64,000 nt of DNA from assembly GCF_024807845.1 (NCBI RefSeq), contig NZ_JANUEQ010000002.1, positions 186,001 to 250,000 of the forward strand, read 5' to 3'. This DNA comes from Klebsiella sp. BIGb0407 (GTDB lineage: Bacteria > Pseudomonadota > Gammaproteobacteria > Enterobacterales > Enterobacteriaceae). Positions 18,560 through 32,417 of this stretch are shown here, one piece after another. Made by a program: the position numbers and the translations under genes. The notes under the pieces were generated by a model. The model was not told the DNA's origin. It did no database searches and saw only the letters and a list, made by a program, of their open reading frames with translations. Within the stretch, counting starts at the first letter, position 1; each line of letters starts with the position of its first letter.

Positions 18560-19873
18560 ATGAATTTTAAAAAACTCCCTTTTGACCAAAATATTAATGG
18601 CTGGTCTGCCATTACAGATTCCACGGCCTGTTATCCTGCGCTGAATCGAAAAATTACGGCTGACTGGTTAGTCATAGGCGCGGGTTACGCCGGGCTGGCA
18701 TTTGCACGACGGATTGCTGAACTACGCCCGCAACAGCATGTGGTGGTGCTGGATGCCGTTGATATTGCGGACGGTGCTTCCGGGCGCAACTCCGGATTCG
18801 TCATTGACCTGCCGCACACTGTCGGAAGTTCTTCGGCTGAATTAGACCATGCGAATAGCTATCGGCGTTTACTGCAGTACGGTGTCAGTCACCTCAAAGA
18901 CACTGTCGAGGGTCAGAATATTCAGTGTGACTGGAGAAATGACGGCAAGTATCACTGTTCAGTCAGTCCCGATTTCGATAATGAAATTGAGCACTATCAG
19001 CAGACATTGCGCACGCTTGGCGAAGATTTTCAGTTACTGGAAAGCCAGGAACTCCGTCAGCGGCTGGGAACCGACTTTTATCGACGTGCTGTCTATACCC
19101 CCAATTGCATTCTGGTTAACCCCGCCGCGCTGATTGCCGGTCTGGCGGAGAGTTTGCCTGAAAATGTTTCTATTTACGCACAGTCGCCCGCACTGGAGAT
19201 AACGACCCAAGGGGGAATTAGGGCGATTACCCCGCATGGGGAAGTGCAGGCAAATAAACTGATGTTTGCCATTAATGGTGCCGCGCGTGGTTTACCACAC
19301 TTTAAAGGCAGCGTGTTTGCGATGTCGACCTTTGCCACGCTGACTGAACCCCTGACGTCTTCACAGCGTGCACGGCTGGGAGATATCACATCCTGGGGTC
19401 TCACTCCCGTCAATGCCCTTGCCGGTGCCACACTCCGTTATACATCCGACCATCGATTTCTGATCCGCGAGCACGTTAATTTCGCCCCTGACCTGCAAAC
19501 CAATGCCGTCGAAACAGGGCGTCATGCGCGCCGCCATCAACAACTGTTCTTACGGCTTTACCCACAGCTGGAGGATGTTGCCATGGCTTACAGCTGGTCT
19601 GGTTTGATAAGCATTACGCGTAATGGCGCACCTGTCTGGGGTGAGCTTGCGCCTAATATTTATTCCGCCGCGGGCTGCAACGGCGCGGGTATCTCTAAGC
19701 AAAGTGCCTTTGGCCGTCTGTTAGCGGAACAAGCATTAGGGGAGGACAACCCGTTGTTGTCCGATCTGATTTCATTGGGTCGTGCCAATTACCTGCCCCC
19801 TCGCCCATTTCTTGATATGGGTGTAAAAGGTTTTATGGCCCGGGAACGCTGGCGCTCACGACATGAAATTTAA
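18560..19873 (+). CDS. FAD-dependent amine/amino-acid oxidoreductase (DAO family)
   Basis: A 437-residue protein with a dinucleotide-binding motif VIGAGYAGLAFARRIAE near residue 37, the DAO signature GASGRNSGFV near residue 75, and a C-terminal FAD-contact block SAAGCNGAGIS near residue 373. The architecture matches PuuB/OrdL-type and DadA-type enzymes, which oxidise gamma-glutamylputrescine, N-methylated or D-amino acids. It is followed after 34 bp by an M19 dipeptidase homologue, probably in the same operon, suggesting a two-step pathway in which a conjugate is hydrolysed and an amine oxidised. The substrate cannot be named from sequence. Confidence 0.75.
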   Translation: MNFKKLPFDQNINGWSAITDSTACYPALNRKITADWLVIGAGYAGLAFARRIAELRPQQHVVVLDAVDIADGASGRNSGFVIDLPHTVGSSSAELDHANSYRRLLQYGVSHLKDTVEGQNIQCDWRNDGKYHCSVSPDFDNEIEHYQQTLRTLGEDFQLLESQELRQRLGTDFYRRAVYTPNCILVNPAALIAGLAESLPENVSIYAQSPALEITTQGGIRAITPHGEVQANKLMFAINGAARGLPHFKGSVFAMSTFATLTEPLTSSQRARLGDITSWGLTPVNALAGATLRYTSDHRFLIREHVNFAPDLQTNAVETGRHARRHQQLFLRLYPQLEDVAMAYSWSGLISITRNGAPVWGELAPNIYSAAGCNGAGISKQSAFGRLLAEQALGEDNPLLSDLISLGRANYLPPRPFLDMGVKGFMARERWRSRHEI

Positions 19874-19907
19874 TACGTAACCTGATGGCTAAAAAACGAG
19901 AATAGAG

Positions 19908-20903
19908 ATGACAATACCCACACTGCAGCAACAAGCTAAAACGCTATACGCTAATGCGCTGGTATGGGACGGGCATTCCGGTTTTATGCCCGACCCTGCA
20001 GCCGACCTGAATAATCTGCAATTGTGGCGTGAGGCAGGTATTCACTATCTTTCGATTAATGTCGGTTTTGACGTGCTGCCCTGGGAACAAAGCGTACGTA
20101 ATCTGGCCGCCTTTCGTCACTGGATACTCGACAACCCGGATGACTATCAGTTGGTCAGCCATGCACAGGATATTCTGACTGCCCGTGCAGCAGGAAAGCT
20201 GGCAGTGACATTTGATCTTGAAGGGATGAATGCGCTGGACGGGCGTGTGGAGATGGTGGAGTTTTATCATCATCTGGGTGTGCGGCAGATACTCTTCGCC
20301 TATAACCGTAATAATCTGGCGGGTGGCGGTTGTCACGACAAGGATATCGGGCTGACTAGCTTCGGGAGTGAAGTGATTGATGAAATGAACAGACTGGGCA
20401 TGTTTGTTGATGTTTCACACTGTAGCTATCGCACCAGTATTGAAGCGATGGAGTACTCAAAAAAACCGGTGATATTCTCTCACTCTAATCCGCTGGCAGT
20501 CACTCGTCACGGCCGTAATATCAGCGATGAGCAGATCCGTGCCTGTGTTAAAACCGGTGGTCTGATTGGGGTCAATGGTATCGGTACATTTCTGGGTCAC
20601 ACACAACCTGATGCTGCGCTATTAACCCACCATATCGACTATCTGCTAAAAGTAGCGGGCCCGCGTCACGTTGGAATCGCTCTGGATTACGCCTTTGCTG
20701 TCGGAAATACCAGTACCGAAGAGATTTTAGCTGCGCATCCTGAGTACTGGCCGCAAGAAGAGTACAACGATACCAGCGGTTATGTCGCACCCGATGCCCT
20801 GGAGCAGGTGGTAGCCGAGCTATTACAACTGGGACATAGCGAGAAAACGATTCGCAATGTACTGGGAGATAATTTCTATCGGTTAGCCTGCGAAATTTGG
20901 TGA
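19908..20903 (+). CDS. Membrane dipeptidase-family (M19) protein
   Basis: A 331-residue protein of the renal-dipeptidase fold, with no signal peptide and so cytoplasmic. It keeps the bridging Glu in TFDLEGMNAL and the His ligands in VDVSHCSY and IFSHSNP. The first metal motif, normally His-x-Asp, reads His-Ser-Gly here (WDGHSGFMPD near residue 22), so one metal-ligand Asp is absent. M19 enzymes hydrolyse dipeptides, often with a C-terminal D-residue; the altered motif leaves activity open. Its ribosome site AGAG precedes ATG 19908. It is paired with the upstream FAD oxidoreductase. Confidence 0.75.
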   Translation: MTIPTLQQQAKTLYANALVWDGHSGFMPDPAADLNNLQLWREAGIHYLSINVGFDVLPWEQSVRNLAAFRHWILDNPDDYQLVSHAQDILTARAAGKLAVTFDLEGMNALDGRVEMVEFYHHLGVRQILFAYNRNNLAGGGCHDKDIGLTSFGSEVIDEMNRLGMFVDVSHCSYRTSIEAMEYSKKPVIFSHSNPLAVTRHGRNISDEQIRACVKTGGLIGVNGIGTFLGHTQPDAALLTHHIDYLLKVAGPRHVGIALDYAFAVGNTSTEEILAAHPEYWPQEEYNDTSGYVAPDALEQVVAELLQLGHSEKTIRNVLGDNFYRLACEIW

Positions 20904-20923: not shown

Positions 20924-20959
20924 TAAAGAGAGTTATCCTGGATAAGATAACTCTCTTTA
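20924..20959. terminator. Bidirectional terminator
   Basis: TAAAGAGAGTTATC and GATAACTCTCTTTA form a perfect 14-bp stem around an 8-nt loop, between the convergent dipeptidase-like and lyase genes. Confidence 0.75.
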
Positions 20960-20966
20960 TAGCCAC

Positions 20967-22337
20967 TTACTTATAATGCTGCTTAATCTCTTGGGCGATA
21001 GCAAAACCACGCCGTGACTCTTTCTCTGCTATTTCAACCGATAGTCCAATATAAGCTCTGGGATCCAGCATATGTTTAATTTCATCCTCATTAAACGCAG
21101 CTGAAATAACCTCGTTGTTAATCAGGTTGGTGTAAAAATCTTCGCCGTCGGCTGCGGTCTTAATCGCTTCATCATAGAGTAGTGAGTGTGCTTTATCTTT
21201 ACCCAGCTTTTCAGCCATCTTCATCATCACGTATTCAGTATTATCTAAGCCTTTATTTCTTAATACGTTATGTAGCATTCTTTCTTCATGAGGAACCAGA
21301 GTTCTGGAAAGCTCTTCAGTTCTTAACAGGATCTCGGTCGTTAACTCTAATGCTTCTTCAAGTAACCCATCAAATAACATGTATGAACTGCTGTCACCTT
21401 CATAAGGTCTGACAGCTGAGTACATACCTACACTCGGTAAAGAATAAAGTTTCTGCGAATTAGCGATAATACCTTTGGCTAATTTCGGGTTAATTTTATG
21501 CGGCATGGTGCTACTACCTACAGTGCCCTTGGTAAACCCTTCGGAAACCTCGGCTATCTCTTCGAGTGTCGTGCTGTAAACCTCTTCACCGATTTTATGA
21601 CAAATATTCGCCATCAGGGCCAGATTAGAAATATATTCTAATTTATGGGTACTCAGGTTTCTGGAGGGAACCTCCATAGCTTCCATGCCGGTCAGTTCAG
21701 CCACTCTTTTTTGAACCGCCATGCCAACGCCAGGCATTGAGTTAAAAGCGCCCACGGCCCCGCCCATCATGATGGTGAATACGCGTTTCTCGCACTCTTT
21801 CATACGCTGATAACAGTCGATAAAATCGCTTATCCATACCGAGACTTTGTAGCCATAGGTGATAGGAATCGCATGCCGACCATGCGTTCTGCCCGGCATC
21901 ACCATTTTTTTGGTTTTCTCAGCTAAATTAGCCAGATTTTCAATAATTTCGCTGAGCAGTAACATAAATTTATGATGCACTGTTTTCATCATATACAGCT
22001 GTGAACTTTGCTGAATATTTTGCGTGGTAATACCGTAATGAATATATTTACCACTTTCTTCTGAGCAAGCATTCACTAATACTTTTAAAAAAGGAACAAA
22101 GCCATGGCCAATTTTTTGATAAATACGGCTCATTTCTTCAAAATCGATATTCTCTATGATAGCTTTTTCTTTTATTTCATCAGCCGCTGATTGTGGAATA
22201 AAACCAAGTTCAGCTTGGGCTTGAGCTAACATAGACTCGAACATTAACCAGGTTGAATACTTTGCTTCATTAGATAGCAAGTCTTTGATACCACGGTCGT
22301 CGATTGTTTTACTCTTTGAATCATATAAAGCTCTCAT
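20967..22337 (-). CDS. Adenylosuccinate-lyase/aspartase-superfamily lyase, PTS-linked
   Basis: A 456-residue member of the fumarase/aspartase/adenylosuccinate lyase superfamily. The three conserved regions are visible: IHYGITTQN at 99-107, GRTHGRHA at 149-156 with His152, and the signature GSSTMPHKINP at 274-284 on the flexible loop with the catalytic Ser. Enzymes of the family cleave C-N or C-O bonds by beta-elimination, usually releasing fumarate. In region 1 the usual T-S-x-D is T-T-Q-N, unlike a housekeeping PurB, so a different substrate is likely. It is the last gene of an RpiR-PTS-lyase operon, 13 bp after the PTS gene, which suggests it acts on the phosphorylated transport product. 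It is not the housekeeping purB, judged by context. Confidence 0.8.
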   Translation of the reverse strand: MRALYDSKSKTIDDRGIKDLLSNEAKYSTWLMFESMLAQAQAELGFIPQSAADEIKEKAIIENIDFEEMSRIYQKIGHGFVPFLKVLVNACSEESGKYIHYGITTQNIQQSSQLYMMKTVHHKFMLLLSEIIENLANLAEKTKKMVMPGRTHGRHAIPITYGYKVSVWISDFIDCYQRMKECEKRVFTIMMGGAVGAFNSMPGVGMAVQKRVAELTGMEAMEVPSRNLSTHKLEYISNLALMANICHKIGEEVYSTTLEEIAEVSEGFTKGTVGSSTMPHKINPKLAKGIIANSQKLYSLPSVGMYSAVRPYEGDSSSYMLFDGLLEEALELTTEILLRTEELSRTLVPHEERMLHNVLRNKGLDNTEYVMMKMAEKLGKDKAHSLLYDEAIKTAADGEDFYTNLINNEVISAAFNEDEIKHMLDPRAYIGLSVEIAEKESRRGFAIAQEIKQHYK

Positions 22338-22350
22338 AATATATCCTTGT

Positions 22351-23907
22351 TTATTTCTTCATTGCGTCATCAACAGCATTGCGAACGAATTCAACCTTCG
22401 GTCCATAAACGACATGAATATGATTTTCCGTTGGGAATAAAAATGCTGAACAACCTGACTTCAATATTAAATCTTTATCGATTTTATCCGCCTCTGCGAT
22501 ATCAATGCGAAGCCGGGTAATACAGTTATCGACGTTACGGATATTTTGTTTGCCACCTAAGGCCTCAAGCAGAATAGCTGCCGCTTCTCCGTAGCGTTTC
22601 TCTTTGATTAAGGTGCTTTTAATACTAGCAGACTCTTCTCTGCCCGGTGTTTTGATATCAAATCTCACAATGGAGAAGTAGAAGATGAAGTAAGTGACGA
22701 CGGCTAAACAGCTACCGATGAGGACCAGGAAAATCCAGTTAGTATGTTCGTAGAGCAGACCAAATATGGTGAAGTCAAAAACAGTACCCCGGATATACCC
22801 TATCGCTACACCCGCCAGTGAGAGTAATACCGCGCCAATACCGACGATCATGGCATAGATGAGATATAACAGCGGTGCAATAAAGACAAAGGTAAACTCT
22901 AGCGGTTCAGTGACATTACCGAGCATCGCGGTTAATACCATGGTCACGAGCATCGATTTCACTTCTGCGCGATTTTCTTTTCTTGAGGTTCTATAAATCG
23001 CCAGGGCTATCGCCGGGAATAAGAATAGCGTCACCAGCATTTGTTGCTGAGCCATAAAACGTGTCAGGCTTGGCATCATTGACCAGTATTCACTGTTTGG
23101 CCCTTGCTTAAACAAGACTTCTGTCATCGCCGGGACAACACCAACAAAGGTTTCTCCATCAATAACATAAGAACCACCGGCTTCAGTAAATCTGAACAGC
23201 ACGTTCCAGACGTGGTGTAATCCGAATGGGATAAACAGTCGTTCTCCCCCGGCCGTAAAGAATGGCCCGACAGGGCTGAGGATAACCGCAGATAATTTCA
23301 TTAAACCAAGAACTAAAACTTCCCAGATAAAGGGTAGAAAGGCTCCAACGACCATCATCAGGCCAATCATGATAATGGAGACAGACTTTTTCCCGGCGAA
23401 GAAAGCAAATGCGGTAGGTAGTTCAAGGTTATAAAATTTATCAGTCGCCCAGGCAGCAATCAGACCGGTGATAATCCCCCCGGCGGCGCTGATATTCATG
23501 GTTTGAATGCCCAGAACTTTGATTTGTCCGACCTGGGTCATCACCGCCGCATCCGCCAGTTTGCCATTCAGTATCAGCCAGACATTGATAGTGATTATCA
23601 ATGTTAAGTATCCGACCACCGAGGCAAAAACCGCTATTCCTTTATCCCGCTGACTCATGCCATAAGCAACCCCCATCGCAAACAGCAGTGGAATATTGTC
23701 AAAAATAACACCCGCAATAGAACGAATACTGACTAGTAGCTCATTGACCGTTTCGTTTCCAAGGAAAGGGAATCGAGCAATCATATAAGATTGAACTAAA
23801 GCTCCGCTGATACCCAGAACCATACCAATGGGAGCCAGAACACCGATAGGAAGAAGCAACGTTCTCCCAAACCGCTGAATTGAATCACTAAACTTTCTCT
23901 TAGCCAT
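22351..23907 (-). CDS. PTS glucose-superfamily EIICB permease, unknown substrate
   Basis: A 518-residue EIIC-EIIB fusion. The EIIC part (about 1-420) has the glucose-family blocks RTLLLPIGVLAPIGMVLG, FIPFGLHHVWNVLF and TEPLEFTFVFIAPLLY (sugar-binding Glu region). The EIIB domain carries Cys462 in NVDNCITRLRIDI. It lacks an EIIA domain, so it probably uses EIIA-Glc (Crr). The MalX/GlvC/PtsG/NagE branch is indicated, but the substrate is unknown. It lies between the RpiR regulator and the lyase. AGGAT precedes ATG 23907. A 19-nt palindrome about 100 bp upstream may be its operator. Confidence 0.85.
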   Translation of the reverse strand: MAKRKFSDSIQRFGRTLLLPIGVLAPIGMVLGISGALVQSYMIARFPFLGNETVNELLVSIRSIAGVIFDNIPLLFAMGVAYGMSQRDKGIAVFASVVGYLTLIITINVWLILNGKLADAAVMTQVGQIKVLGIQTMNISAAGGIITGLIAAWATDKFYNLELPTAFAFFAGKKSVSIIMIGLMMVVGAFLPFIWEVLVLGLMKLSAVILSPVGPFFTAGGERLFIPFGLHHVWNVLFRFTEAGGSYVIDGETFVGVVPAMTEVLFKQGPNSEYWSMMPSLTRFMAQQQMLVTLFLFPAIALAIYRTSRKENRAEVKSMLVTMVLTAMLGNVTEPLEFTFVFIAPLLYLIYAMIVGIGAVLLSLAGVAIGYIRGTVFDFTIFGLLYEHTNWIFLVLIGSCLAVVTYFIFYFSIVRFDIKTPGREESASIKSTLIKEKRYGEAAAILLEALGGKQNIRNVDNCITRLRIDIAEADKIDKDLILKSGCSAFLFPTENHIHVVYGPKVEFVRNAVDDAMKK

Positions 23908-24000
23908 ATACTATCCTGATGACAATGAATGTTTAAATTATTGCCATACTAGCATTGATATTTTTTTAGCAAATGATTCTGCGGTTTTAAATATTAACTA

Positions 24001-24019
24001 AGGTCACAAAATATGACCT
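24001..24019. promoter_or_regulatory. Candidate operator upstream of the PTS-lyase genes
   Basis: AGGTCA-CAAAATA-TGACCT, a 19-nt inverted repeat in the 165-bp gap between the RpiR gene and the PTS gene, 94 bp before the PTS start. Binding by the neighbouring RpiR protein is inference. Confidence 0.45.
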
Positions 24020-24072
24020 GGGACATTTCAGGAAGAGAGGTAACTTAAACTCAAATAACCATATAAATTTGA

Positions 24073-24813
24073 TTACATTAGTTGCTCTAATTCATATACC
24101 AGTAAATCAACTAAAATAAAAAACCCCACCCTGGATTTAGTATCATCTTTTTTTGTGTCGTGATTATCAGCGAAACAAAAAAGATTATGGTTAGCATAGG
24201 TTGTGAGTTCATTAGAATGAAATGCCGTCATACTAATAATATCCGCCTCTTTTAATTGAACCGCTTTTGCGGTTTCAATGATTTTCTTGGTCCCACCGGA
24301 TAAAGAAATAAACACCACGGTATCGTCACTGCTGACTAACCGCGTAAAAGAATCGGACAAGTTATAATCATTGATAAAAAAGCAATGCAATCCTAATGAA
24401 AACAACAAGTGTTCAAGATAGTAACCAACGGCTTTACTGGTTCCTCGGGTGACAATGAAAATATTTTTTGCATGACGTAAAGATTTAGCGCAGTCATGGA
24501 TCTGTTCTTCATTGATCAGAGTAAAGCTTTTATTGATGTTTCTTTCCAGCTGTTTTTTAAACGAAGGCAGATTTTGGTTTTTATTTTTGTTTTCAGCTAA
24601 AATATGCTCATTGATCTTGAACTTAAGCTCTTTATAGCCATTGAAGCCGAGCTTTTGAGACAGATTGACGATCACGGTCTTTGAGACAAAGGCTTTAGCC
24701 ACTAACTCATTGATATTCAGCAAGGGAATGTCAGCGATATGATCGATAATGTATTTTAGTGCTTTTTTTTCACTGGTTGTTAAATCAGCGTAATTTTTCA
24801 AAAAATCCAACAT
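24073..24813 (-). CDS. RpiR/MurR-family regulator of the PTS-lyase operon
   Basis: A 246-residue protein with an N-terminal RpiR HTH (about 1-75: SEKKALKYIIDHIADIPLL, AFVSKTVIVNLSQKLGF) and a C-terminal SIS domain that in this family binds a phosphosugar (VTRGTSKAVGYYLEH, FISLSGGTKK). AGG precedes ATG 24813. It lies upstream of and codirectional with the PTS and lyase genes. By family analogy the inducer is a sugar phosphate, probably the PTS product. A run of eight A (coding strand) is present in codons for SEKKA. Confidence 0.85.
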   Translation of the reverse strand: MLDFLKNYADLTTSEKKALKYIIDHIADIPLLNINELVAKAFVSKTVIVNLSQKLGFNGYKELKFKINEHILAENKNKNQNLPSFKKQLERNINKSFTLINEEQIHDCAKSLRHAKNIFIVTRGTSKAVGYYLEHLLFSLGLHCFFINDYNLSDSFTRLVSSDDTVVFISLSGGTKKIIETAKAVQLKEADIISMTAFHSNELTTYANHNLFCFADNHDTKKDDTKSRVGFFILVDLLVYELEQLM

Positions 24814-25245: not shown

Positions 25246-26397
25246 ATGGACATTAAATATATACTCCCTTCATTATTTTTGGTAACGTCATCCTGTGTGT
25301 TTTCAGATATTTTACCCAGGCATGGTTATATAAACTCCCCTCCAAGCAGAGCATTTCTTTGTTCTGGTTCAGGGAATAACGTGAATAAGATGTGTGGTCC
25401 TGTTCAATACGAACCTCAATCAGTTGAAGGGCTTAAGGGGTTTCCTGAAACAGGCCCCATGGATGGGAAGATCGCCAGCGGTGGTAATGCTAATTTTGAT
25501 GCATTAAATGAACAGTCTCCTACCCGATGGAGTAAAACCAAAGTAAACAGCGGAAAGAACACCTTCTCCTGGACATTAACGGCTGCTCATCGTACGACAT
25601 CATGGCGATTTTTTATCACTAAACAAAATTGGGATCCAACAACCCCCCTGGAGCGTTCTGATTTTGATTTAACACCATTCTGTGAGCAATTTGATAATGG
25701 TAAAATGCCTGCTAGCAAAGTAAAAATAAACTGTAATGTGCCGGAACGTCAAGGATATCAGGTAATTCTTGGAGTATGGGATATAGACGACACCGCGAAT
25801 GCTTTTTATCAAGTCATTGATGCTAATATGACTGGCCATGATAACGGCAGTGGCAATGGCAATGGCAATGGCAATGGCAATGGCAGTGAGGATGATGATA
25901 AGAAAGATAAAGAATATCTAACCGAAGCTAACTTAGTTAAAGATCAAAAAGATAATGGCAGCTATGTATCATATAATCTTGAGGTTAAATCGGATGCCTA
26001 CCCCGCTTCAACACCAGACTATAAATGGTCGTTACCAAAAAATGCAGAGCAGGTTGTGACTGCAGATAATTACAGCCGTTTTATTATTAATAAAAAAGAT
26101 AATATACAAGAAGATAAAGTTAGAGTGAAAGTTATAGCGGGAAAAATCTCTAAAGTATTAATACAAGATATTAATGTTCCAGGATTAGTTCAGGAGCACG
26201 AATATGATTATATATTTCCAGATAATCTCGCATTTTATACAGCGGGTACAATAGTTTATCAGCCAAAAGATAAAAATACGTATGAGTGTAAACCTTTCCC
26301 TAACAGCGGTTTTTGTATCCAATGGTCTCCTGGCGCAAATCAATATGAACCCGGTGTTGGTTTCGCCTGGCAATCAGCCTGGACTTTGCTGGATTAA
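25246..26397 (+). CDS. Chitin-active lytic polysaccharide monooxygenase (AA10) with chitin-binding module
   Basis: A 383-residue secreted protein. Residues about 26-197 are an AA10/CBP21-type domain: HGYINSPPSRAFLC, the second copper His115 in LTAAHRTTSWRFFIT, and VILGVWDIDDTANAFYQ. A (Gly-Asn)n linker at about 201-214 follows, then a beta-rich region, and at 330-383 a CBM5/12-like module with aromatic residues (YQP...WSPG...YEPG). AA10 enzymes oxidatively cut crystalline chitin using a copper held by the N-terminal His and a second His. Here the putative first His is residue 26, after SDILPR; a normal signal peptidase cut after VFS would leave it five residues inside the chain. Ribosome site AAAAGGAAA. 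No chitinase gene is adjacent. Confidence 0.88.
   Translation: MDIKYILPSLFLVTSSCVFSDILPRHGYINSPPSRAFLCSGSGNNVNKMCGPVQYEPQSVEGLKGFPETGPMDGKIASGGNANFDALNEQSPTRWSKTKVNSGKNTFSWTLTAAHRTTSWRFFITKQNWDPTTPLERSDFDLTPFCEQFDNGKMPASKVKINCNVPERQGYQVILGVWDIDDTANAFYQVIDANMTGHDNGSGNGNGNGNGNGSEDDDKKDKEYLTEANLVKDQKDNGSYVSYNLEVKSDAYPASTPDYKWSLPKNAEQVVTADNYSRFIINKKDNIQEDKVRVKVIAGKISKVLIQDINVPGLVQEHEYDYIFPDNLAFYTAGTIVYQPKDKNTYECKPFPNSGFCIQWSPGANQYEPGVGFAWQSAWTLLD
25846..25887 (+). repeat. Hexanucleotide tandem repeat in the LPMO linker
   Basis: Seven hexamers: GGCAGT, five copies of GGCAAT, then GGCAGT, encoding Gly-Ser/Gly-Asn pairs. Unit loss or gain keeps the frame and would only change linker length. Confidence 0.9.
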
Positions 26398-26524: not shown

Positions 26525-27358
26525 TCAGTTTTTCGACTCCCCCTGAAAATATGCCAGCGCAATCATCAGTGACTGAACCAGGCACAGGGTGGCTGACTGA
26601 GAGCGAAACGCATCAACCTGAGCCTCTTTAACCACAAAACACAGATCGCTGAAGGTCGCGAGCGGACTAATCTGGCTATCTGTTATCACTATTTGTCTGG
26701 CACCAGCATTGGCCGCTATTTCACTGATCATCACCGTTTCTTCGGCATAAGGCGAAAAGCTGATCGAGACTAACAGATCCTTTCCTGTAATACGGCTAAC
26801 CTGCTCACGAAACATCCCGCCCATCCCGTCGAGTAATACCGGACGACATTCAAGATGGCTGAGGGCATAAGACAGATAAGCCGCAACGCTAAAAGAACGT
26901 CGCAGACCTACCACATAAATCGTTTCTGCATTCGCCAGCAGTTCTACCGCCTGCTCCAGCATTTCCGGCTTGGTACGCGCTGCTAATTGCTGTAAAGCCT
27001 GGGCATTAGAACGGGAGAATTCCTGCAAAATATCAAAGGGCGTTTCTGGTATTTCTTCACTTTCCATCTCACGAAATAATCGTGCCCGGTCAGTATAGCT
27101 CGCCGTTTCCTCCACCAGATTCATACGAAATAATTGTTTCATTTCATTGAATCCACTGAAATTAAAAGCATTGGCAAAGCGGATCAAGGTGGAAGGTGGA
27201 ACCCCCGCTCGTTCAGCTATTATCGCGACGGTGTCAAAGGCCACGCTATTGGTGTTATCCAGTACATAGCGTGATACCTGCTGCAGCCGTTTGCTCAGGT
27301 CATCATAGCGCTCACGGATCTGCTCTTGCAGTTCACTTAAACTCGTCGCAGTGCTCAA
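26525..27358 (-). CDS. iolR: RpiR-family regulator of myo-inositol catabolism
   Basis: A 277-residue RpiR-family protein with an N-terminal HTH (LSKRLQQVSRYVLDNTN...AGVPPSTLIRFANAFNF, about 18-80) and a SIS domain (YVVGLRRSFSVAAYLSYAL near 145 and SISFSPYAEETV). It is divergent from iolA and belongs to the RpiR-type IolR group that represses iol genes in Salmonella and rhizobia. The inducer is probably a phosphorylated intermediate. It likely binds the TTTCA/TGAAA palindromes in front of iolA and iolG. ATG 27358 follows AAGGGGA. Confidence 0.85.
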   Translation of the reverse strand: MSTATSLSELQEQIRERYDDLSKRLQQVSRYVLDNTNSVAFDTVAIIAERAGVPPSTLIRFANAFNFSGFNEMKQLFRMNLVEETASYTDRARLFREMESEEIPETPFDILQEFSRSNAQALQQLAARTKPEMLEQAVELLANAETIYVVGLRRSFSVAAYLSYALSHLECRPVLLDGMGGMFREQVSRITGKDLLVSISFSPYAEETVMISEIAANAGARQIVITDSQISPLATFSDLCFVVKEAQVDAFRSQSATLCLVQSLMIALAYFQGESKN

Positions 27359-27570
27359 TGTTATTCCCCTTAAAAAGTGTACTAACGGGTATTTAAACGC
27401 AGTAAAGCAGAAAATGAAACAGATGTACCGTTATCATCTTTCGCATAAACGCCCCAATTCCCTGTCTGTGCCTGTCGCCTGGCGGACTGTGCCAGCGATC
27501 GTCCAATGTCGGTTATGTATGGTGTAAACATCAAAATTGATTCTTGATCACAATAATCAATATTTATTTT

Positions 27571-27601
27571 ATTTCAAGCTGAAATGAAATGTTTGTTTCA
27601 T
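27571..27601. promoter_or_regulatory. Candidate IolR operators before iolA
   Basis: Two overlapping palindromes built from the same half-site: ATTTCA-AGC-TGAAAT at 27571-27585 and ATGAAA-TGTTTG-TTTCAT at 27584-27601, about 45-70 bp before the iolA start. The half-sites recur before iolG. Binding by IolR is inference. Confidence 0.5.
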
Positions 27602-27643
27602 ATACAGTGTTCAGGACATCTATTTAACAGCGAGAGGGTAGAT

Positions 27644-29149
27644 ATGGAGACGGTAGCGAATTTTATTCACGGCAAATGTATCACGGGTGACAGCCAGCGC
27701 GTTCAGGCAATCTTTAATCCGGCCACCGGAGCACAGATCCGTCAGGTTGCTATGAGTACGGTACAACAGACAGAACAAGCTATTGCTGCCGCGCAGCAAG
27801 CTTTCCCCGACTGGTCCCGCCAGTCTCCGCTCAAACGTGCCCGTGTCTTATTCCGCTTTAAAAGTTTGCTTGAACAGCATATGGATAGCCTGGCAAAACT
27901 CATTAGCGAAGAACACGGCAAAGTCTATTCTGATGCCGTCGGTGAACTGACACGCGGCCTGGAAGTGGTTGAGTTCGCCTGCGGTATTCCACATCTACAA
28001 AAAGGTGAGCATTCTGCCAATGTCGGTACCGGCGTTGACAGCCACTCACTGATGCAACCGCTAGGGGTCTGTGCCGGAATCACGCCGTTTAACTTCCCGG
28101 CCATGGTGCCGATGTGGATGTTCCCTATTGCGCTGGCAACGGGAAATACTTTCGTACTTAAGCCATCAGAAAAAGATCCCTCCCTGGCAGTAAGACTGGC
28201 GGAGTTACTGAAAGAGTCAGGACTTCCTGATGGCGTCTTTAACGTGGTGCAAGGAGATAAAGAAGCCGTTGATGTGCTGCTAACCGACCCGCGTGTACAG
28301 GCCGTCAGTTTTGTCGGTTCAACGCCGATTGCTGAATATATCTACAACACCGCATCCGCCCACGGTAAACGCTGCCAGGCACTCGGTGGAGCAAAAAACC
28401 ACTGTATCCTGATGCCGGATGCGGATATGGCGATGGCCACAAATGCCATTATGGGTGCTGCCTTTGGTGCTGCCGGGGAACGCTGTATGGCGCTGTCAGT
28501 GGTCGTTGCCGTCGGTGATAACGCCGCCGATACCCTCTGCTCCCAGCTGGAACAACAGATAGCTACCCTGCGCGTCGGCCCGGGCCTCGGCCACCAGCCA
28601 GAAAACGAAATGGGACCACTGATAAGCAGCGCACATCGTGCCAAAGTCCTGGGTTATATTGATAGCGGTGAGTCGCAGGGTGCCACGCTGCGTGTTGATG
28701 GACGTGGACTTAAAGTCGCGGGTAATGAGGAAGGTTATTTTGTCGGCCCGACACTGTTTGACCACGTCACGCCAGAGATGACAATTTATAAAGAGGAGAT
28801 CTTCGGCCCGGTACTGAGCGTAGTGCGCGTGGCTGATTATCAAAGTGCCCTGAATCTGATTAATCAGCACGAATACGGTAATGGTACCGCCATTTTCACC
28901 CGCGATGGCGGAACAGCAAGACGTTTTTGTGAAGAGGTTCAGGTGGGTATGGTTGGCGTGAACGTGCCGATTCCGGTACCCATGGCGTTCCACAGTTTTG
29001 GTGGCTGGAAACGATCTATCTTTGGCCCCCTGAATGTCCATGGTAATGATGGTGTACGTTTCTATACTCGCATGAAAACCATTACTGCGCGCTGGCCGGA
29101 AAGCCATCACCAACAAGGTGCCGCATTTTCGATGCCGACACTGGGCTGA
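27644..29149 (+). CDS. iolA: Methylmalonate/malonate-semialdehyde dehydrogenase
   Basis: A 501-residue CoA-acylating aldehyde dehydrogenase. The catalytic Cys281 lies in [14 protein letters not shown]; the N-terminal MMSDH wording ([15 protein letters not shown]) and the late block FKMP-like region ([13 protein letters not shown]) are typical of IolA. It converts malonate semialdehyde, the end product of inositol breakdown, to acetyl-CoA, CO2 and NADH. ATG 27644, preceded by GAGAGGG, is preferred over an in-frame ATG 20 codons upstream that lacks family sequence. iolD follows 11 bp later. Confidence 0.92.
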
Positions 29150-29160
29150 CAGGGGAAAAA

Positions 29161-31089
29161 ATGACAACACTACGTTTAACCATGGCGCAGGCGCTGGTCA
29201 AATTTCTTAATCAACAATACATTGATGCCGAGGGTGAGGAGCAGCCGTTTGTCGAAGGCATACTGACCATCTTTGGTCACGGAAATGTTTTAGGTATCGG
29301 CCAGGCGCTGGAAGAAGCCCCTGGCCATCTGAAAGTTTACCAGGGATGCAGCGAGCAAGGAATGGCCCACATTGCCACCGGGTTTGCAAAACAGCATCTG
29401 CGGCGTCGTATCTATGCGGTGACTTCTTCGGTAGGTCCTGGGGCTGCCAATATGATTACTGCGGCTGCGACAGCAACCGCTAACCGTATTCCATTACTGT
29501 TATTACCGGGGGATATTTATGCCAGTCGCCAGCCCGACCCGGTGCTACAGCAGATTGAGCAATACCATGACTTAAGTATCAGTACCAACGATTGCTTCCG
29601 TCCGGTATCGCGCTACTGGGATCGTATTAACCGTCCGGAACAGCTGATGAGCGCCATGCTAAGCGCCATGCGAGTGCTCACCAACCCAGCCGATACCGGA
29701 GCAGTGACTATCTGCTTACCCCAGGATGTGCAGGGTGAAGTCTGGGACTATCCGGCCAGCTTCTTTGCTCGCCGGGTACATCATATTGAACGCCGTCCAC
29801 CGGATGAAAGTCGATTACAGGCAGCACTGGCACTGATTAAAAGTAAACGCCGACCTCTGGTGATTTGTGGTGGCGGGGTACGTTATTCAGGTGCCCATGA
29901 CGCTTTTCAGGCATTTGTTGAAACGGCGCAGCTACCGTTCGCCGAAACACAGGCGGGTAAAGGTGCGCTAGTGAGTAATCACCCACTCAATCTTGGCGGC
30001 CTGGGGGTTACCGGGGGGCTTGCCGCTAATCTGCTGGCTCCCAAAGCAGACTTGATTATTGGTGTCGGAACACGTTTAACTGACTTTACCACCGGCTCAA
30101 AAGCGCTGTTTGCGCCCGATGCTGAGTTTCTGATGCTGAACGTGGCAGAGTTTGATGCCATGAAACTCGATGCCACGCCGCTGATAGCCGATGCCCGTAT
30201 CGGACTGGAGCGATTAACGTCAGAACTCAGTGATATCAAGTATCGCGCGCAATGGGATGACGATATCCTGCATGCCAGAACGGCCTGGAATCAGGAGTGT
30301 CAGCGGCTATGGGAGCGTCACTGGCAGGCGGGTGACACGCCTGAAGTTGCCGGGCATCTTGATGAAACCTTGCGAGAGTACAGTGAGGCTCTCGGCACCT
30401 CACTGACGCAAACCCGCGTGCTGGGGCTTATCAATCAGCATATCGAAGATGATGCAATTGTGGTGGGTGCCGCAGGTTCACTCCCGGGGGATTTACAGCG
30501 GTTATGGCAGGTAAAAACGCCCGATAGCTACCACCTGGAATATGGCTACTCCTGCATGGGCTATGAAATAGCTGCGACGGTCGGGGCTAAACTGGCGAAA
30601 CCCGCTCAGCCAGCCTACGCCATGGTGGGGGATGGTTCTTATATGATGCTCCATTCTGAGCTGCAAACCGCCGTGCAGGAGGGGGTGAAAATAACCGTCT
30701 TACTGTTTGATAACGCTGGGTTTGGTTGTATTAATAACCTACAGATGGGGCACGGTATCAGTAGTCTGGCAACCGAAAATCGCCAGCGAAACCCGACAAC
30801 CGGCAAGCTTGACGGACCGCTGGTGAAGGTGGATTTTGCTAAAAATGCTGAGAGCTATGGCTGCCGTGCTTTTCGCGTTCATGATGAGCAAAGTCTGCTG
30901 GCAGCTCTTGAAGCCGCTAAGCTCGCTGATGGTCCGGTTTTACTTGATATCAAAGTGCTGCCTAAGACCATGACGCATGATTATGAGGCCTGGTGGCGAA
31001 CCGGTGATGCCGAGGTAGCGCTGTCCCCTGCGGTAACTCAGGCTTTCGAAGAGACTCAGTCAATGCTCAAGCGCGCCCGTCAGTATTAA
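29161..31089 (+). CDS. iolD: 3D-(3,5/4)-trihydroxycyclohexane-1,2-dione hydrolase
   Basis: A 642-residue thiamine-diphosphate enzyme. It shows the N-terminal Pyr domain with the catalytic Glu region ([19 protein letters not shown]), a middle TPP-family domain, and the C-terminal ThDP motif [15 protein letters not shown]...[11 protein letters not shown]. It opens the inositol ring, converting trihydroxycyclohexane-dione to 5-deoxy-glucuronate. GGGGAAAAA precedes ATG 29161. A hairpin terminator follows, separating iolAD from the iolG-iolB transcription unit. Confidence 0.93.
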
Positions 31090-31095
31090 CCCCCT

Positions 31096-31130
31096 GTTCC
31101 GCCTGTAAACCAGGCGGAACATTTATTTCA
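31096..31130 (+). terminator. Terminator after iolD
   Basis: GTTCCGCCTG-TAAAC-CAGGCGGAAC, a perfect 10-bp stem followed by ATTTATTTC, 6 bp after the iolD stop. Confidence 0.75.
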
Positions 31131-31403
31131 TCTCGTTGTGGATAATCCCCTGTCAGTAGCCCATTCTCGCTAAATCTCTCAATTTCACCTTCTGTAAATT
31201 TTTCTGCTTAGCCAATATTGTGATTCCGATAACAAAAAGGATCCATCAGAGGAACAAAATGTTAACCCCCACACAAAAATGAAACTTTCAGTCTGCATTA
31301 AAATGAAATAAATGTTTTATTTTAGGTGTCGATTATTAGTTGCCTAGGGTGCCGGTGTTCTCCGGTATCAGAGATTAACGCAATACCCATTTCGGGAGCC
31401 GCT
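31131..31403 (+). promoter_or_regulatory. iolG promoter region with candidate IolR sites
   Basis: No gene is visible. It contains TGAAA-C-TTTCA at about 31280-31290 and, 20 bp on, the near-palindrome AAATGAAATAAATGTTTT at about 31301-31320, which resembles the sites before iolA. This probably is a second IolR-controlled promoter. Confidence 0.45.
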
Positions 31404-32417
31404 ATGTTTAACATTGCTTTATTGGGTGCCGGCCGCATTGGCCAGATCCACGCTGCAAATATTGCCGCCCACAAAGAGACGACTCTGTGGTCAGTTGTTG
31501 ATCCGAATGAAGAGAATGCCGCCCGTATTGCTGCCCAGTATCAAACCAAGGTACAGAGCGTAGACGAGGTCATGGCTGATACTAACGTACATGCTGTGCT
31601 GATTGCCTCAGCAACCGATACCCATGCAAACTTAATCGAACTTGCCGCCCGTCATGGCAAAGCGATTTTCTGTGAAAAGCCGGTACACCTTGACCTTGCC
31701 CGCGTTCGCGAATGTCTTGAAGTGGTAAAGGCAAATAGCGTCCCACTGTTTATTGGTTTTAATCGCCGTTTTGACCCGCAATTTCGTCGCGTCAAAACTG
31801 AGGTTCTTGAAGGCCGGATAGGCAAACCAGAATCCCTGCTGATTATCTCACGCGACCCTTCCCCGCCGCCGGTTGAATATGTGCGTGTTTCTGGCGGCAT
31901 GTTCCGCGATATGACTATCCACGATTTCGATATGGCGCGTTTCATCATGGGTGAAGAGCCGGTCTCTATCTACGCTCAGGGAAGCAATCTGGTCGACCCT
32001 GCTATCGGTGAAGCGGGTGATATCGATACCGCGTTTATTGTCCTGAAATATCGTTCCGGGGCAATGGCGACCATTGTTAACAGCCGTCGTTCAGCCTACG
32101 GCTATGACCAGCGCATTGAATTACACGGCGCTAATGGCCTGCTGTCTGCCGGAAATATTCTGGAAAACCAGGTACAGCATCTCAGCTCTGCGGGTTGCCG
32201 GAGCGCCTTACCAGAGCACTTTTTCCTGCAACGTTACAAAGATGCCTATGCCGCAGAATGGCAGCATTTTGTTGGCGTTCTGCGCGGTGAAACTAAACCA
32301 GAATGTAGCGGCGAAGATGGTGAGCGTGCGCTGTATCTGGCCGACAAAGCACTGGAGTCCCTGCATAACCGGTGTGAAATAACGTTAGATACCCTAAATA
32401 ATTCGAGTGGCTTGTAG
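31404..32417 (+). CDS. iolG: Inositol 2-dehydrogenase
   Basis: A 337-residue Gfo/Idh/MocA-family NAD enzyme. The Rossmann motif GAGRIGQIHAANIA is at the N-terminus, CEKPVHLDLA carries the conserved Lys, and GGMFRDMTIHDFDMARF carries the catalytic Asp-His region. It oxidises myo-inositol to scyllo-inosose. ATG 31404 (MFNIALLGAG, site GGGAG) is preferred over an upstream ATG at 31326. The last few codons and the stop lie inside a 125-bp intergenic repeat, so the natural C-terminus may have been altered (ends NNSSGL). Confidence 0.9.
   Translation: MFNIALLGAGRIGQIHAANIAAHKETTLWSVVDPNEENAARIAAQYQTKVQSVDEVMADTNVHAVLIASATDTHANLIELAARHGKAIFCEKPVHLDLARVRECLEVVKANSVPLFIGFNRRFDPQFRRVKTEVLEGRIGKPESLLIISRDPSPPPVEYVRVSGGMFRDMTIHDFDMARFIMGEEPVSIYAQGSNLVDPAIGEAGDIDTAFIVLKYRSGAMATIVNSRRSAYGYDQRIELHGANGLLSAGNILENQVQHLSSAGCRSALPEHFFLQRYKDAYAAEWQHFVGVLRGETKPECSGEDGERALYLADKALESLHNRCEITLDTLNNSSGL

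Follow-up and report, generated by a model that had tools for sequence, protein, structure and literature searches.

Three codirectional genes on the minus strand of a 64,000-nucleotide stretch of Klebsiella sp. BIGb0407 DNA (contig NZ_JANUEQ010000002.1, positions 186,001 to 250,000; the whole stretch is referred to as the window) bring together a sugar permease of the phosphotransferase system (PTS), a lyase and a transcription regulator. The regulator (24073..24813) is an RpiR/MurR-family protein of 246 amino acids with a SIS sugar-phosphate domain (Pfam HTH_6 and SIS). It is followed by a PTS EIICB of the glucose superfamily (22351..23907; Pfam PTS_EIIC and PTS_EIIB) with phosphorylated Cys462 and without an EIIA domain of its own. 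After a gap of 13 bp comes an enzyme of the fumarase/adenylosuccinate-lyase superfamily (20967..22337, 456 amino acids; Pfam Lyase_1 and ADSL_C plus signatures), which carries His152 within GRTHGRHA, GSSTMPHKINP at residues 274–284 and TTQN from residue 104. A candidate operator on the same strand (23995..24026), with the conserved form ATGACCTAGGTCAT-N6-TGACCTnnGTnA, begins 119 nt upstream of the EIICB start codon. An inverted repeat with a 16-bp stem and a 4-base loop (about 20924..20959, given without strand; –19.8 kcal/mol for 66 bases folded) lies where the lyase and M19 dipeptidase genes converge and closes the unit as a probable transcription terminator. The three genes have a G+C content of 0.35–0.45 versus 0.463 for the window. 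Gene order, coordinates, domains and active-site residues are all as the original prediction had described them from the letters, and, as it had also stated, the unit contains no gene for a glycosidase, deaminase, isomerase or kinase.

The pairing of PTS and lyase is conserved. Of 62 distinct loci, found in Morganellaceae, other Enterobacterales and Bacillota, 60 have a homologous EIICB gene next to that of the lyase. The set joins the loci of a scan of genome contigs with others from further genomes and plasmids (64 were mapped, from which L084 and L085, repeats of L037 and L038, were removed). Its Morganellaceae loci come only from the scan, in which all 38 lyase loci (58–97% identity) had a homologous EIICB, whole or partial, directly upstream. 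The adjacency holds even for a lyase that is only 41% identical (L095). Copies of the PTS gene are partial or split at L040, L057, L066, L072 and L169, and the two exceptions to the pairing are L094, where the lyase is decayed, and L155. The frequency is far beyond chance, and we reject the possibility that the genes are accidental neighbours; a search for the pairing across genomes, proposed as a check in the original prediction, thus bears out the tie between the PTS and a fumarate-type lyase in two phyla. In the Bacillus kwashiorkori locus (L066, 1099-7948) only the C-terminal part of EIICB was found, behind transposase-like open reading frames (ORFs; by eye), while the lyase frame is open. 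The EIICB itself, with both domains and the active-site Cys, belongs to the glucose superfamily and scores below the curated cut-offs for MalX, PtsG, NagE and MurP proper (403 of 632 bits for malX, the nearest NCBIfam model, 340 of 592 for glcB, 290 of 553 for nag and 27.6 of 516 for the MurP model).

Gram-negative carriers in the scan were Providencia, Proteus and Morganella (many genomes), one Cedecea, one Enterobacteriaceae bin and one Ignatzschineria bin; among Bacillota they were Vagococcus, Bacillus, Cytobacillus, Lacticaseibacillus, Atopococcus, Alkalibacterium and a Gallicola bin. The contig of the Ignatzschineria bin (L036) holds, in addition to the operon, the second RpiR gene of the window (92%), so its label is doubtful and the contig is perhaps mis-binned. 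In genome samples, each including the genome on which it was centred, the system is patchily distributed: it was present in 29 of the 343 genomes from the window's family (its own counted), in 3 of 398 from the class of Vagococcus, in 4 of 27 and 5 of 29 from two families of Bacillota, and in 1 of 34 and 1 of 299 (Gallicola lyase as query) in further samples. The count for the window's family rejects a strain-specific island. Of three further genomes from the genus, one (G002) is without the operon. No match was found in 5,426 Escherichia coli genomes at blastn sensitivity, and a phage collection gave only PTS proteins with <60% identity, in 9 records. The pair also occurs on a plasmid of Klebsiella aerogenes for which conjugative transfer is predicted. 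Only three records of a plasmid collection have a PTS relative at E 1e-100 or better; all three also carry the lyase, two of them being chromosome-sized Proteus entries. Because the Morganellaceae–Cedecea branch, window included, nests inside the Bacillota lyases (quick tree with long-branch warnings), transfer between phyla is suggested.

Records that we saw name the lyase family only 'adenylosuccinate lyase family protein'. A Pfam Lyase_1 score of 106.2 bits (gathering score 27) places the window lyase in the fumarase/aspartase superfamily. It falls below the cut-offs of both PurB models, with 244.3 bits on TIGR00928 (cut-off 326.2) and 71 on PRK09285 (cut-off 446), and the host genome encodes five Lyase_1 proteins, one of which is a PurB over its cut-off (500 bits). 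Identity to this PurB is 23% over 196 matched columns; it is 27–28% for the PurB of four Bacillota hosts and 22–28% for all seven hosts compared. Placing the lyase in a superfamily tree, another check proposed beforehand, gave one clade of 35 PTS-paired lyases (Shimodaira–Hasegawa-like approximate likelihood ratio support 99) apart from both PurB types; the tree has 67 rows, omits six near-identical rows of the 41 family members and is a quick build with long-branch warnings and a FumC/ArgH outgroup that is not clean. Nearest to the clade are two alphaproteobacterial plasmid lyases, one within an ABC-transporter cluster. We therefore reject a plain PurB copy, and the case that would have spoken against the prediction, a lyase grouping with PurB and paired with the PTS in this strain only, is excluded as far as sequence goes. 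The family is marked by HYG[IV]TTQN[IV]QQ, GRTHxxHA, GSSTMPxKxNP and an N-terminal DSKSKT. GRTHxxHA is kept in 41 of 41 members, the GSS loop is kept too, and HYG[IV]TT[QK]N[IV]QQ is matched in 39 of 41 (HYGxTTQN in 38, HYGxTTKN in one; two rows gave no pattern match). TTQN, read in the original prediction as an argument against a plain PurB copy, is therefore general in the clade and not a peculiarity of this copy.

Two other functions within the superfamily were considered and rejected. XcbD gives the best NCBIfam score, 292.1 bits against a cut-off of 600; the window lyase also scores far below the CMLE cut-off, and it keeps the His of GRTH. A fold model built with 18 sequences (mean predicted local distance difference test score 75, active-site loops low) gave Foldseek matches of which the 50 best listed are all superfamily members, with CMLE and Tad1 as the best folds and BNC1 fumarate lyase, PurB and CreD among the others. 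The modelled fold fits the superfamily and does not discriminate between substrates.

A gene for an RpiR relative is found no more than 4.2 kb from the lyase in 39 of 62 loci (a distant relative in one, L155), and one for a Mga/PRD-type regulator in 22; the latter goes with clusters that have no RpiR, NagA clusters among them, and L065 has both types. Scoring of the candidate operator covered the RpiR-type loci whose EIICB start is intact, which leaves out L066 and L155. It reaches 17–22 of 23 in 35 of the 37 loci other than the window, which itself scores 21; L093 (12) and L095 (16) are the exceptions. The spacing is always 6 and the site begins 112–212 nt before the start used. Among 1080 shuffles of 18 upstream stretches (18 of the 19 loci first inspected, L093 having been dropped) the maximum was 17, reached once. 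These scores are to be read with the facts that the consensus was derived from the same sequences and that most loci are close relatives (Morganellaceae); the operator is also common to Vagococcus, Bacillus and Lacticaseibacillus loci. The shared operator supports the view that the genes form one functional unit. By eye, several Bacillota promoters also hold AAGCGCTTT-like boxes, which we take to resemble CcpA sites, as expected for a carbon-source operon. An RpiR regulator of Proteus mirabilis, PMI2974, is reported as a kidney fitness factor in PMC5484520; it may or may not correspond to the regulator of this operon.

Clusters of relatives carry enzymes that the window unit does not have, namely deacetylases, fumarase and malic enzyme. 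Among Bacillota, a class II fumarase (FumC) is present in 9 of 62 clusters, malic enzyme in 6 and a ChbG/YdjC deacetylase in 7, and a NagA-type deacetylase occurs in 14 clusters (two Carnobacteriaceae, Gallicola and eleven Enterobacterales). Pfam agrees with the family assignments of FumC, NagA and ChbG. On curated models the FumC of L062 and L068 and the NagA of L068 and L072 exceed their cut-offs, and the ChbG of L062 and L068 fall just under theirs (194.1 and 226.3 versus 227 bits). Morganellaceae and the window have only the PTS, the lyase and the regulator among mapped genes. In a fumarase search of 11 hosts, picked rather than drawn at random, five of six with a cluster FumC have no other fumarase match above 471 bits, roughly the level of the second fumarase match of the window host (442); the exception, G104, has two FumC matches, 599 bits elsewhere and 524 in the cluster. 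All five hosts without a cluster FumC have one of at least 753 bits elsewhere. We read this near-complementary pattern as genomic evidence for fumarate as the product. In the window host, FumC is present together with two genes of the NagA family.

We propose, with a probability of roughly 60%, that the unit serves as an operon for the catabolism of a sugar conjugate, combining uptake, phosphorylation and elimination of fumarate. The EIICB would import an aminosugar joined to a C4 dicarboxylate by a C–O or C–N bond and phosphorylate the sugar, probably at C6, as the PTS family would imply. By an anti-elimination of the kind that PurB and fumarase catalyse, the lyase would then detach the phosphosugar from the malyl- or aspartyl-type carbon, yielding fumarate and (N-acetyl)hexosamine 6-phosphate. 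Fumarate would be converted to malate and pyruvate, and the phosphosugar would be deacetylated and enter glycolysis; chromosomal FumC and NagA may take these last steps in the window host and dedicated cluster copies in many relatives. RpiR would act at the conserved TGACCT operator in response to the phosphosugar, presumably as a repressor. Release of fumarate is the part in which we place high confidence, since cluster FumC occurs mostly where the host has no other strong FumC. The sugar half is probably an N-acetylhexosamine phosphate or, more broadly, an N-acyl aminosugar, because two unrelated deacetylase families of the N-acetylglucosamine (GlcNAc) type joined the clusters.

Our leading candidate for a single substrate, advanced tentatively, is GlcNAc or glucosamine (GlcN) linked to malate (GlcNAc- or GlcN-O-malate), the backbone of bacillithiol. 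The superfamily acts on L-aspartyl and L-malyl centres, so L-malate glycosides, whose malate has the fitting configuration, would suit the lyase. To our knowledge, GlcNAc-malate or GlcN-malate is the one common natural compound known to give fumarate and an aminosugar phosphate by elimination. GlcNAc-malate is a real metabolite, being made by BshA and deacetylated by BshB according to a passage of PMC4360819. It is conceivable, though we consider it rather unlikely, that the whole amounts to a transferable pathway for eating this backbone, in which GlcNAc-malate or GlcN-malate shed by bacillithiol makers is taken up and phosphorylated by the PTS and then opened by fumarate-releasing beta-elimination. 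Such an elimination would break the O-glycosidic malyl bond without a glycosidase, and the phosphate would single out imported molecules as those to be cleaved, so that Bacillus hosts with bshA would keep their own unphosphorylated pool.

Several observations weigh against this picture. The gene for BshA exceeds its cut-off in only 3 of 14 hosts tested, which speaks against synthesis in the hosts as a general source; in the remaining hosts the compound would have to come from outside, and with such a supply bacillithiol synthesis by the host would not be required. No other bsh genes were noticed by eye in the cluster flanks, where no aimed search was made. The window unit has neither a deacetylase nor a fumarase gene, three of six cluster FumC copies (G100, G104 and G107) are below the FumC cut-off of 664.75, and L068 and L071 carry both NagA and ChbG, although a single acetyl group would not call for both. 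Another, higher-scoring NagA is present in all five cluster-NagA hosts tested (G025, G051, G105, G107 and G108), and the cluster copies reach 225–252 bits, at or just above the cut-off of 225.65. When 12 cluster copies (L068, L071, L072, L081, L082 and L164–L170) were aligned with 11 others, ADGxH was changed to KQ[TS]GxT and NAM to S[GA]M in the cluster copies; in canonical NagA these two motifs bind the sugar phosphate. Most of the metal and catalytic motifs are retained, although L169 has Tyr in place of the Asp of [TS]DC. Given the marginal score, the altered motifs and a canonical NagA alongside, the cluster NagA may not act on GlcNAc-6-phosphate. It is likely a paralogue with a new specificity, whose substrate for deacylation may be the conjugate before cleavage or some other sugar. 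At L155, on plasmid pLNT-1 of Companilactobacillus pabuli, the lyase directly follows a cluster of alpha-glucoside PTS, 6-phospho-alpha-glucosidase and alpha-glucosidase, without the usual EIICB. Alphaproteobacterial homologues of about 40% identity sit with ABC or TRAP transporters and fumarase and not with a PTS, so the wider lyase family is not sugar-specific. The cleavage chemistry and the substrate are, moreover, both inferred from genomes. A Cereibacter sphaeroides plasmid (L156, 4111-15530) carries two fumarase-superfamily lyases, one of them 40% identical to that of the window, with a class II fumarase, an MR/MLE enzyme and transporters of the TRAP and peptide-type ABC classes; this cluster may encode a further catabolic route that releases fumarate.

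The conjugate may also be another one: malate or aspartate carrying a different N-acylhexosamine, bacillithiol as a whole, or GlcNAc-asparagine derived from glycoproteins. The NagA-like enzyme would then act before the conjugate is split, or remove a different acyl group. Its status as a separate paralogue with altered motifs next to a better-scoring NagA fits such a substrate, but Morganellaceae and the window manage with PTS, lyase and regulator, so the extra enzyme is not needed everywhere, and GlcNAc-asparagine would require deamination plus an amidase. We regard this group of substrates as a serious though improbable alternative. The example given in the original prediction, an aspartate Amadori compound of the fructosyl-aspartate type, would be imported, phosphorylated and split to fructosamine 6-phosphate and fumarate by the same genes; fumarase and malic enzyme fit it, and uptake of Amadori compounds by a PTS is described for the Gfr system (PMC12675984). 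However, Gfr cleaves with deglycases, and an Amadori sugar has no N-acyl group, which would leave the NagA-like and ChbG-like deacetylases (14 and 7 of 62 clusters) without a role, and no gene for use of fructosamine phosphate was seen in the clusters. The deacetylases thus argue for an N-acylated aminosugar half, and favour a GlcNAc- or GlcN-malate conjugate over the Amadori compound, which appears quite unlikely.

A further explanation separates the two proteins. The PTS, being nearest to malX and ptsG-type models, could import an ordinary glucose- or maltose-type sugar, and the lyase, with its PurB-type Pfam domains, could have a side role, in detoxification or on an internal metabolite of purine- or arginine-like type, with the pairing a matter of history. 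This would leave unexplained why two phyla have retained the pairing along with a common operator, as well as the recruitment of fumarase and malic enzyme into the clusters, and it would add a lyase of a separate clade to a host with its own PurB; we consider it very improbable. Overall, the class of pathway (PTS uptake followed by a fumarate-releasing lyase) is well supported and the Amadori example is disfavoured.

Genes flanking the unit were also inspected. An FAD-dependent oxidoreductase (DAO) and an M19 dipeptidase form a pair at 18560-20903 on the plus strand, convergent with the lyase. On the other side, a gene resembling lytic polysaccharide monooxygenases (LPMO) and GbpA adjoins the operon (25246-26397, plus strand; 364 bits on the GbpA model versus a cut-off of 481). 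A tie of the operon to this LPMO or to chitin was considered and found unsupported, as an LPMO homologue is near the lyase in 1 of 62 loci (L037, a Cedecea genome, partial match). The second RpiR-family gene and an inositol-type cluster follow at 26525-32417 (IolA-, IolD- and IolG-like ORFs, by eye).

In line with the original prediction, which knew of no such pathway, searches of open-licence PMC papers gave, among the results listed, no account of a PTS–lyase pathway of this kind or of PTS-based catabolism of the bacillithiol backbone. If our proposal is true, elimination would be a further way to dismantle acid-bearing sugars after PTS uptake, beside etherase and deglycase, and a function would be provided for a lyase family known only by its generic name. 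Recycling of the bacillithiol backbone as food between species would also become testable; bacillithiol is argued, in a portion of PMC6282198, to be the most widespread bacterial thiol.

Comparison with known systems places the proposed pathway among routes with a shared plan. MurP–MurQ–MurR, the N-acetylmuramic acid pathway, uses a glucose-superfamily PTS and an RpiR-family regulator and yields GlcNAc-6-phosphate. The likeness lies in PTS import of an acid-bearing aminosugar, intracellular removal of the acid after phosphorylation and RpiR-family control; however, MurQ is a SIS-fold etherase that frees lactate, whereas here a lyase of the fumarase superfamily would free fumarate. Uptake of a sugar–amino acid conjugate, phosphorylation and intracellular cleavage also make up the Fra pathway. 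The same three steps serve for glucoselysine and fructoselysine in the Gfr system, which differs, as far as described in an excerpt of PMC12675984, by a four-subunit PTS permease and by deglycases that release the amino acid intact. At the level of the enzyme, the window lyase shares with PurB the superfamily fold, the signature regions, the GSS loop and the catalytic His, but PurB copies of Bacillota read TSTDVVD where the lyase family reads TTQNIQQ, and the lyase occurs with a PTS. XcbD, the nitrosuccinate lyase CreD, CMLE and Tad1 belong to the same superfamily; several other superfamily proteins compared read GRTW, ARTN or GRTL, in contrast to the GRTH of the window lyase family. Finally, bacillithiol biosynthesis supplies in GlcNAc-malate and GlcN-malate the best-fitting conjugates, with the difference that the BshA/BshB/BshC route builds what the proposed operon would degrade.

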